Positions 60,267 through 64,000 of a DNA stretch of 64,000 bases are shown one piece after another. The notes below the pieces were generated by a model that did not search any database, was not told the DNA's origin, and saw only the letters and a list, made by a program, of their open reading frames with translations. The stretch covers positions 62,001 through 126,000 of the forward strand of contig NSJJ01000004.1 of assembly GCA_002632355.1 (NCBI GenBank). The letters are read 5' to 3'. Source of the stretch: Sulfuricella denitrificans (GTDB lineage: Bacteria > Pseudomonadota > Gammaproteobacteria > Burkholderiales > Sulfuricellaceae). A program made the position numbers and the translations under genes. The stretch's first letter is position 1. Every line of letters begins with the position of its first letter.

Positions 60267-60608
<342 letters not shown>

Positions 60609-60621
60609 TCAGTTCTCCTGA

Positions 60622-62229
60622 TTATTCTTTCCACGGACGGTATTTCGAAGTAATTGGGTAACGCCTGTCCTTGCCGAACCCACGCGGCGTAATGCGCACA
60701 CCCACGGGCGACTGACGCCGCTTGTATTCACTCAGGTCGATCAGTTTGATCACACGCCTGACGTCGCGCTCATCAAAACCCATGGCAATGATGTCATTGG
60801 GGCACATATCGTGTTCAACATAAGCTTCCATAATGGTATCAAGCACCTCATATGGTGGAAGACTATCCTGATCTGTCTGATCCTGGCGCAACTCGGCTGA
60901 AGGTGCACGGGTAATCACACGCTCCGGGATGACAGGAGCAAGCCGGTTGCGGTGCAGTGCGAGGCGATATACCAGCGTCTTCGGCACATCCTTCAGGACA
61001 GCGAACCCCCCCGCCATATCGCCATATAGCGTGGCATAACCAACAGCCATTTCACTCTTGTTGCCAGTTGTGAGCACGATCGAACCGAATTTATTGGACA
61101 GTGCCATCAGCAAGGTACCGCGAATGCGCGCCTGAATGTTTTCCTCGGCGATATCGAACGGCAACCCATCAAATTCGTCTGCCAGGCAATCGAGAAAGGT
61201 ATCGTACATCGGCTTGATGGTGATTTCGCTATATTGCACACCCAGAGTATTTGCCATGGCCTCAGCATCATGGAGACTGATATCCGCCGTAAACTGAGAG
61301 GGCATCATGACTGCGCGCACCCGGTCCGCCCCCAGCGCATCCACAGCAATCGCCAGCACCAGCGCAGAATCGATCCCGCCGGACAAACCCAGCAGCACGC
61401 CTGGAAAGCCATTTTTTTCGACATAATCACTGACCCCGAGGCACAGGGCGCGGTACACGTTCTCTTCCAGAGAATGCTCCGGCACAATTTCTCCCAACTG
61501 CGGTGCGGCATTTTCGAATTCCACTACCCGCAGTGCTTCTTCGAAGGCGGGCAACTGATGCGCCAGATTGCCTCCTGCATCCATGACGAAAGAGGCGCCA
61601 TCAAATACCAGCTCATCCTGACCGCCAACCAGATTGACATAAACCACCGGCAATCCACATTCGCCGATGCGCTCGCGTACAGCCTCATAGCGAGAGATCT
61701 GTTTGTTCATGTGATAGGGAGAGGCGTTCAACACCAGCAATACTCTGGCGCCAGACTGGCTGGCGCATACCGGCGCACCCTCCTCCCAGATGTCAGCACA
61801 GATATTGAGACCGAACCGCACTCCGCCAGCCTCGAAAGTACATCCCTCTGTGCCGGAAGAGAAATAGCGCACCTCATCGAAAACAGAATGGTTTGGCAAA
61901 CGTTGCTTGTGATAAGTCGCCACAACCTTGCCGGATTGCAACACGGAGGCTGCATTAAAGCGCAGGCCATTCTCCTGATGCGGATGCCCCACGATAACGG
62001 TAATACCCTCAACTTGCCGCGCAAGCTCGAACAGGGCCGCGTCACTGGAATGATAGAAGCCCTCGCGCAGCAGCAGGTCTTCAGGCGGATACCCGGTAAG
62101 GGAAAGTTCAGGTGTCACCAGCACCTGCGCGCCCATCTCCCTGGCGCGATTTGCATAGTCAAGAATCTTGGCGGCATTGCCGATAAGATCACCGACAATG
62201 CAGTTGATTTGGGCAAGTGCAATTTTCAT
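60622..62229 (-). CDS. nadE: Glutamine-dependent NAD+ synthetase
   Basis: 535 aa. An N-terminal nitrilase-fold glutaminase (about 1–250) has Glu in TPELSLTGYPPEDLL, Lys in YHKQRLPN and Cys in NICADIWEEG. The synthetase domain has LSGGIDSALVLAIAVDALG and TTGNKSEMAVGYATLYGD. It makes NAD from deamido-NAD. It is upstream of the PII gene in one operon. Confidence 0.95.
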   Translation of the reverse strand: MKIALAQINCIVGDLIGNAAKILDYANRAREMGAQVLVTPELSLTGYPPEDLLLREGFYHSSDAALFELARQVEGITVIVGHPHQENGLRFNAASVLQSGKVVATYHKQRLPNHSVFDEVRYFSSGTEGCTFEAGGVRFGLNICADIWEEGAPVCASQSGARVLLVLNASPYHMNKQISRYEAVRERIGECGLPVVYVNLVGGQDELVFDGASFVMDAGGNLAHQLPAFEEALRVVEFENAAPQLGEIVPEHSLEENVYRALCLGVSDYVEKNGFPGVLLGLSGGIDSALVLAIAVDALGADRVRAVMMPSQFTADISLHDAEAMANTLGVQYSEITIKPMYDTFLDCLADEFDGLPFDIAEENIQARIRGTLLMALSNKFGSIVLTTGNKSEMAVGYATLYGDMAGGFAVLKDVPKTLVYRLALHRNRLAPVIPERVITRAPSAELRQDQTDQDSLPPYEVLDTIMEAYVEHDMCPNDIIAMGFDERDVRRVIKLIDLSEYKRRQSPVGVRITPRGFGKDRRYPITSKYRPWKE

Positions 62230-62333: not shown

Positions 62334-63404
62334 TTATCCAGCCTCGAGCTGACAAATAGCTTCAAGCTCACGGGAACGCCAGTTCAGCACAGAGGTATGC
62401 GTGAACATTTTGCTTTCCAGCTGAGGAAATTCGGTTCTGATCACGTCGGCTGCAAACTGGGACAGAAAATGCGCCTTCAACTCGGCACGCGCCCGATCTA
62501 CGCCAATTTCGTTATAGGGGGAAGATGCCAGCAACAGGAAACCATCATCGGGTATTCGACCGGCCTTCATATTTGACTCGATAATACCCGCAGCCTTGCG
62601 GATCGGGTCAGCCAGATCAGGGCTGTAAGGTCCGATAATCAGGGCAAGATTGGGCATGTGAAGAAAATCGAACCCACGCCCGACGCACATCATCCACTCG
62701 CGATGCTCGATGTTGAGGGCACGAGCGCTGAGCCTGATCTCGTTCACGTGTGACATATTTCCCATAATCAGCGGCAACAGATCCCGACGCACCTGGCCCG
62801 CCATATCAGGAAAAAGCTTTTCCAGACGCAGCTCCAGCGTATTTGCATCCTTTGGCGTCAGTTGCGCCACTTCCAGAATTTCACCATTCGCTCCATGCAG
62901 GATGAGCGCATCTTCATCTGTTTCAAAGCCGCAAACAATGGGGTAAACCGTACCATGCCCCTGCCCGAAAACATGCTCCACCTGCTGTTTGATGCCGTAT
63001 GTATGAGCGATGGCCGCCTCGGTATCGTAACAAAACCCGGCACAACCACGGTGCTTGTCGCCTTTGGAAAAATGATAAGTGATCAGCACCAGTACCCGCC
63101 GTCCGGCAGAAACCACACCATGCACATGATTGGTAAGTACTTCACCAAGATGCGGCCAGCCAAGATTGAACATACCGCCAAGATTGCGTATTGGCGTCAG
63201 AATACCGGGGGGAGTGTTGGTGGCAACGGGGATATTGATCCGTCCATCCATGCACTTGAGCACCACGATATCTGACGGGTGTTCAGCAAGATAGCGTTCA
63301 CGCGCCAGAAACATCTCCGGATTACTGAACGAAGCGGAGTATTTTCGCGCATGATCCAGCAGCCACTCGATACGTTCGTTGATCGGTTTACTATGAATAT
63401 CCAT
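62334..63404 (-). CDS. Carbonic-anhydrase-like protein (beta-CA/CsoSCA-type metal site)
   Basis: 356 aa, no signal peptide or membrane segment. A good AGGGAGAG Shine-Dalgarno precedes the ATG. LKCMDGRINI gives Cys51, Asp53 and Arg55 in the Cys-x-Asp-x-Arg order of beta carbonic anhydrases. YHFSKGDKHRGCAGF gives His111/His118 and Cys121, where those enzymes have the second His and Cys zinc ligands. The wording around YHF...GCA recalls the carboxysomal shell enzyme CsoSCA, but that comparison is from memory. No carboxysome genes are in the window. The C-terminal 200 residues are not assigned. Confidence 0.65.
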   Translation of the reverse strand: MDIHSKPINERIEWLLDHARKYSASFSNPEMFLARERYLAEHPSDIVVLKCMDGRINIPVATNTPPGILTPIRNLGGMFNLGWPHLGEVLTNHVHGVVSAGRRVLVLITYHFSKGDKHRGCAGFCYDTEAAIAHTYGIKQQVEHVFGQGHGTVYPIVCGFETDEDALILHGANGEILEVAQLTPKDANTLELRLEKLFPDMAGQVRRDLLPLIMGNMSHVNEIRLSARALNIEHREWMMCVGRGFDFLHMPNLALIIGPYSPDLADPIRKAAGIIESNMKAGRIPDDGFLLLASSPYNEIGVDRARAELKAHFLSQFAADVIRTEFPQLESKMFTHTSVLNWRSRELEAICQLEAG

Positions 63405-63487
63405 GCCACTCTCCCTGTTATAAGTGAGAAAATGCCTGAATGGCTGGGCTGCGTCAAATTCACTTTTATTGGGTAGAAAGAAAAATT

Positions 63488-64000
63488 ATGCGACTCACCA
63501 AAATCACGACCCGAACCGGAGACGATGGCACCACCGGCCTTGCTGATGGATCGCGGCTCGACAAGGACAATCCACGCATTGCCGCTATTGGCACAGTGGA
63601 TGAACTCAACAGCCAGCTGGGCTTGCTGCTTACGGAATCGCTTTCACCTGCATTGAAAAAAACCCTCTCCGGAATACAGCATGAGTTGTTCGAACTCGGT
63701 GGCGAACTTGCCATGCCCGCCCGCTCCTTCATCCACGAAACGCACGTGTTACAGCTGGAGAAACAGCTTCAGAAATACAACACCGGGTTGCCGCCACTCA
63801 GGGAATTTATTCTGCCCGGAGGGTCACGCGCTGCGGCCCTGTGTCATGTGGCCCGCACTATCTGTCGCCGGGCCGAACGGGATTGCGTCAGTCTAGGAAA
63901 GGGAGAAGCCATTTCCCCTTCTCTGCTGAAATATCTTAACCGGTTGTCAGACCTGCTGTTCGTACTTGGCCGCATTATCAATCAGGAACAGCACATAGCG
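63488..64000 (+). CDS. Cob(I)alamin adenosyltransferase (PduO type), 3' end outside window
   Basis: 171 aa are visible from ATG 63488 to the window edge with no stop. The N-terminal phosphate-binding motif TRTGDDGTTGLADGSRLDK and the later RTICRRAERDCVSL and LNRLSDLLFVLGRIIN helices define the PduO/MMAB ATP:cobalamin adenosyltransferase. It makes adenosylcobalamin. Only about 10–20 residues are probably missing. It is divergent from the carbonic-anhydrase-like gene. Confidence 0.93.
   Translation, partial: MRLTKITTRTGDDGTTGLADGSRLDKDNPRIAAIGTVDELNSQLGLLLTESLSPALKKTLSGIQHELFELGGELAMPARSFIHETHVLQLEKQLQKYNTGLPPLREFILPGGSRAAALCHVARTICRRAERDCVSLGKGEAISPSLLKYLNRLSDLLFVLGRIINQEQHIA

Follow-up and report, generated by a model that had tools for sequence, protein, structure and literature searches.

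CsoSCA2 has been described as a second, compact variant of the carboxysomal carbonic anhydrase CsoSCA (PMC9164163, 2022). As described there, the protein consists of an N-terminal part of ~40 aa with two helices as well as an active and a defunct half, and members are given from Accumulibacter and Sulfuricella. A 'non-cso' orphan cluster, presented in a later study (PMC11086599, 2024), is of the same kind. An assay of any CsoSCA2 was not found in the literature collection searched, which lacks most subscription journals. The zinc ligands of the carboxysomal enzyme of H. neapolitanus are C173, H242, and C253 (PMC12646314).

The gene studied here lies in a window of 64,000 nucleotides, which is the whole stretch of DNA that was analysed. 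The gene, its predicted functional positions, and its neighbours are as follows:

62334..63404, minus strand: CsoSCA2-type beta-carbonic anhydrase (beta-CA), 356 aa, single intact ORF with ATG start (from ORF, TIGR02701, fold, and tree)
63410..63416, minus strand: RBS-like AGGGAGA, 5 nt 5' of the ATG (from sequence)
63282..63383, minus strand: short N-terminal part with two helices, residues 8-26 and 29-41, replacing the CsoSCA hook domain (DSSP on the AlphaFold2 model)
63240..63254, minus strand: codons of Cys51-Met-Asp53-Gly-Arg55, predicted first zinc ligand and Asp-Arg dyad (aligns with 'CADGR' of CsoSCA)
63252-63254, minus strand: Cys51 codon
63246-63248, minus strand: Asp53 codon
63240-63242, minus strand: Arg55 codon
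63072..63074, minus strand: His111 codon, predicted second zinc ligand, equivalent to His242 in H. neapolitanus CsoSCA (alignment)
63042..63044, minus strand: Cys121 codon, predicted third zinc ligand, equivalent to Cys253 in H. neapolitanus CsoSCA (alignment)
62349..62795, minus strand: C-terminal pseudo-domain (~residues 204-352) with no His/Cys pair (alignment; model-CsoSCA alignment over residues 1-356)
60622..62229, minus strand: nadE, downstream neighbour after a 104 bp gap (named from the first-pass annotation and sequence appearance)
60267..60605, minus strand: glnB-type PII protein, downstream of nadE (named in the same way)
63485..64000, plus strand: cob(I)alamin adenosyltransferase, divergent, continuing beyond the window end (PF01923, E 1.6e-59, from L034)

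C51, D53, R55, H111, and C121 are each conserved in 54 of 54 aligned homologues, whose records name five phyla. Hence, the motif is not a product of chance. The five residues align with the zinc ligands and the Asp-Arg dyad of CsoSCA, and the beta-CA order of ligands and dyad that the first-pass annotation had read from the sequence is thereby confirmed. Its metal site also included His118, and this part had to be given up. Position 118 is His in just 17 of the 54 homologues and mostly Gln, Arg, Lys, Leu, or Ala elsewhere. It can therefore not be counted as a conserved ligand, and the predicted zinc histidine is His111.

The spacing between H111 and C121 had been called close to that of CsoSCA, which is correct: it is 10 residues in the window protein and 11 in the H. 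neapolitanus enzyme, while C51 and H111 are separated by 60 and the equivalent residues by 69. A profile of the 54 homologues aligns C51, H111, and C121 with C173, H242, and C253. The conservation of this site speaks for beta-CA chemistry with a single zinc. The C-terminal pseudo-domain is probably the defunct second beta-CA half, as alignment and model suggest; its lack of a His/Cys pair fits one site per pseudo-dimer. Cys158, Trp237, and Cys240 are conserved in 54 of 54 CsoSCA2 sequences and are missing from the six carboxysomal CsoSCA compared. Cys158 and Cys240 possibly form a redox or structural pair.

The window protein matches the NCBIfam model of CsoSCA, TIGR02701, with an E value of 1.9e-9. 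Its score of 36.9 bits is far below the curated cut-off of 241 bits, and the carboxysomal controls L008 and L014 reach 660 and 506 bits. The Pfam scan gave no confident match but only a weak one to Pro_CA_2, and no match to PF00484 (Pro_CA). The distant relative L007 scores 19.5 bits on PF00484 (cut-off 25.7), and the cut-off of CsoSCA_cat is exceeded by the relatives L100, L064, and L007. The hook domain CsoSCA_N (PF20687) is matched by both controls and not by the window protein. When the 54-homologue profile was searched against the PDB, CsoSCA chains alone were found at E<=0.01 (best 2fgy, E 5.2e-9).

The AlphaFold2 model has a mean pLDDT of 89.3 and a pTM of 0.86. In Foldseek, the best five matches are all CsoSCA (E 1.3e-15 to 1.6e-14). 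VIA-align superposes the model on CsoSCA over residues 1-356 with Z values of 31.5, 29.7, and 28.6. With the tandem beta-CA 1ddz, Z falls to 20.1; for beta-CAs of a single domain it is about 10, and the match then spans only about half the length of the window protein. In a tree of 62 proteins, a branch with 100/100 support separates 56 CsoSCA2 from the carboxysomal CsoSCA, of which only six were included. The window protein lies on the CsoSCA2 side; its nearest relative is L040, followed by L041 and the Sulfurimicrobium copy L042. Sulfuricella L046 (75% identity to the window protein) and Accumulibacter phosphatis L100 (68%) are on the same side. L007 is a single long branch, which makes its placement unsure. 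One scan yielded 362 CsoSCA2 relatives; Sulfurimicrobium and Sulfuricella are among the near ones, and the family extends beyond sulfur oxidisers. Profile, predicted fold, and tree agree, which supports placing the window protein with CsoSCA.

The gene is located outside any carboxysome cluster, as the first-pass annotation had it: its neighbours are not cso genes, and no PF00936 shell protein was found in its genome. No carbon-fixation genes are beside the window copy. The divergent side carries cobalamin genes (window 63485-64000 and L034:6028-8462), namely the adenosyltransferase, a histidine-phosphatase family protein, and CobD/CbiB. No terminator-like hairpin was found between the CsoSCA2 gene and nadE (RNA folding z +1.55). 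The nadE and cobalamin neighbours of CsoSCA2 were seen only in the close relatives L040-L042. As the adjacency is confined to these, a functional tie to nadE/glnB or to the cobalamin genes was dropped.

The assembly is 3.09 Mb in size and 100% complete. It encodes form I RuBisCO (CbbL and CbbS), form II RuBisCO (CbbM), and, near the form I genes, a separate canonical beta-CA (PF00484). The window protein is the only CsoSCA-type protein found in this genome. The source bacterium is presumably an autotroph. DabA is encoded within a DAB cluster on a different contig from CsoSCA2. In this uptake cluster (L124:1884-15854, C35), two SulP-type transporters flank a gamma-CA-like hexapeptide-repeat protein, and NuoM, DabA, NuoL, and two further antiporters follow.

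CsoSCA2 is present in 16 of 300 genomes of the order, one of which (1/16) has a shell protein. RuBisCO is found in 16/16 CsoSCA2 genomes and in 113/284 others (Fisher p 8e-7), and a DAB or hyf-like system in 14/16 and 112/284 (p 1.7e-4); because the genomes are related, these p-values are optimistic and the RuBisCO co-occurrence is confounded. Among RuBisCO-bearing genomes only, the p for DAB or hyf-like systems is just 0.03, and the hyf-like system alone is not enriched in the CsoSCA2 genomes of the sample. We therefore base the linkage argument on adjacency and not on co-occurrence.

CsoSCA2 adjoins dabA and dabB-type antiporters in Thiodiazotropha, other lucinid symbionts, Hydrogenophilales L075, Gammaproteobacteria L079, Rhodocyclaceae L115, the Sulfuricellaceae-family L045/G608, and G579. 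In L045, the adjoining antiporters and DabA fragment share 82-90% identity with the DAB operon of the window genome. A distant DabA is encoded near CsoSCA2 in Nitrospira L061. Elsewhere (G578, G382, G471, G532, L035, L044, and L095), a hydrogenase-4/complex-I-like operon adjoins CsoSCA2 instead; it is 4 kb away in G515 and 8 kb in G613. Its subunits are NuoB, NuoC/D, NuoH, and HyfB- and HyfF-like proteins. In the three copies examined, the NuoC/D-type subunit lacks the CxxC motif that would provide NiFe ligands. SulP and RuBisCO genes are close to CsoSCA2 and this operon in some genomes. Next to CsoSCA2, one system takes the place of the other within one genus (G608 with DAB vs G382/G471/G578) and between L079 and L035, where the flanking purine genes are common to both. 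Of the 16 CsoSCA2 genomes in the order sample, 9 have a DAB or hydrogenase-4-like system within about 9 kb of CsoSCA2, and the chance of such closeness for a random gene to a given locus in a 3-Mb genome is, as a rough estimate, well below 1%.

Several of these loci have features of their own. L115:1222-17065 carries a CbbO-like gene, form II RuBisCO, a LysR regulator, CsoSCA2, and the DAB operon consecutively. The hydrogenase-4/complex-I-like operons beside CsoSCA2 include L044:9069-16220, L035:10370-17736, and L095:427-7699. In G410 (L149:9066-18924), CsoSCA2 borders a carboxysome operon and is next to a permease and a small PII-like protein; we take the permease to be SbtA-like, and it and the other operon genes are named by sequence appearance. 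The same operon carries a separate full-length CsoSCA. The Accumulibacter copies are near sulfur-assimilation and polysaccharide-export genes.

From these data, the window protein is most probably a cytosolic CsoSCA2, i.e., a compact pseudo-dimeric beta-class CA with predicted activity that works with DAB and RuBisCO. CsoSCA2 and carboxysomal CsoSCA would descend from a common ancestor. One polypeptide would be a fused pseudo-dimer whose C-terminal half no longer has a site. The N-terminal half would hold the single zinc site, made of Cys51, His111, Cys121, and water in a geometry predicted from the alignment, and the Asp53-Arg55 pair likely keeps it in the open, active form. The enzyme is predicted to interconvert CO2 and bicarbonate. 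Its most likely partners in this carboxysome-free autotroph are the DAB pump and cytoplasmic RuBisCO; it may convert accumulated bicarbonate to CO2 near RuBisCO or hold CO2 and bicarbonate in equilibrium. The data themselves establish the family, the fold, the conservation of the site, the genome content, and the gene linkage in relatives; we infer zinc binding, activity, reaction direction, and physiological partner, the latter two from gene content.

Of the options that the first-pass annotation had offered, that of an autotroph's free-standing enzyme for bicarbonate/CO2 is thus the best reading, since the genome bears RuBisCO, is presumably that of an autotroph, and has no carboxysome. Because the CsoSCA2 genes of relatives are often beside bicarbonate-pump or CO2-fixation genes, the protein probably aids CO2/bicarbonate interconversion there. 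Some points count against this. The window copy has no carbon-fixation gene as a neighbour. A canonical beta-CA is encoded beside RuBisCO in the same genome, so CsoSCA2 may be redundant there. According to two studies, a free cytosolic CA tends to short-circuit the bicarbonate pool (PMC9164163, PMC10880623), and, according to the former, homologues also occur in the described heterotrophs Accumulibacter and Chrysiogenes (PMC9164163).

By analogy, CsoSCA2 might even work specifically with energised uptake complexes for inorganic carbon, and the hydrogenase-4/complex-I-like operon an unrecognised redox-driven carbon pump. We put this forward tentatively and consider it rather doubtful. The operon would then resemble cyanobacterial NDH-1MS and CsoSCA2 would have the part of CupA. 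For the window genome, the partner in such a carbon-pump role would be the DAB operon. The NDH-1MS/CupA comparison draws in part on PMC13144422.

A CA that serves biosynthesis and not RuBisCO-linked fixation, by supplying PEP carboxylase, acetyl-CoA, or carbamoyl-phosphate reactions with bicarbonate, would suit the window gene, which is flanked by nadE/glnB and cobalamin genes with no carbon-fixation genes, and the surroundings of the Accumulibacter copies. We regard it as unlikely because all 16 CsoSCA2 genomes of the order have RuBisCO, carbon pumps and RuBisCO repeatedly adjoin CsoSCA2 across several lineages, and a housekeeping-type beta-CA is already present in the genome. It is less probable still that a repurposed CsoSCA relative acts on another small molecule in the manner of CS2/COS hydrolases, as might suit a sulfur oxidiser. 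Such hydrolases, which have the beta-CA fold, appear further down the list of fold matches (3ten, 3teo, 3vrk; Z 9.2), Sulfurimicrobium and Sulfuricella are among the close kin, and Cys158, Trp237, and Cys240 set the CsoSCA2 sequences apart from CsoSCA. The full-length fold match, however, is CsoSCA (Z about 30), the gene neighbours concern inorganic carbon and not CS2/COS, and the family is wider than the sulfur oxidisers.

Hardly credible is a degenerate leftover of a lost carboxysome locus. The genome has no shell proteins and the gene no CsoSCA N-terminal domain, as such a remnant might; yet the ORF is intact with all catalytic residues conserved, the clade is separate from carboxysomal CsoSCA in the tree, and G410 has CsoSCA2 in addition to the full CsoSCA of its carboxysome operon. 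The cytosolic CsoSCA2 acting with DAB and RuBisCO is therefore the reading that we retain. CsoSCA2 is widespread and bears on the origin of the carboxysomal enzyme and on CO2/bicarbonate handling in autotrophs without carboxysomes. Its linkage to DAB and to the NiFe-less hydrogenase-4-like complex provides concrete candidate partners and is the most useful lead.

Canonical single-domain beta-CAs (PF00484) share the Cys-His-Cys order, the Asp-Arg dyad, and the fold of one half with the window protein, which differs from them in having no PF00484 match and only the half-length fold agreement at Z about 10. Carboxysomal CsoSCA (TIGR02701; PDB 2fgy, 8thm, 9g4t) shares the whole-length fold, the same five catalytic residues, and a predicted single zinc site in each pseudo-dimer. 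The two are 16-18% identical when aligned by structure, and unlike carboxysomal CsoSCA, the window protein has no hook domain, no cso operon, and no shell proteins in its genome; the three residues Cys158, Trp237, and Cys240 also distinguish the two.

No paper linking CsoSCA2 to DAB, the NiFe-less hydrogenase-4-like complex, or SulP/SbtA was found in the literature collection searched; naming these as the systems linked to CsoSCA2 is added here. The kind itself is in print as CsoSCA2, and hence the label 'unassigned' given in the first-pass annotation is outdated. The window protein has about 350 aa, a short two-helix N-terminal part with no hook domain, the five catalytic residues, an active and a defunct half, and a gene outside a cso operon. 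Every tested feature fits the published CsoSCA2/'non-cso' kind and none differs. Judged by the genera in the tree (Accumulibacter L100, Sulfuricella L046) and by the description, the window protein is another member of this already published kind.
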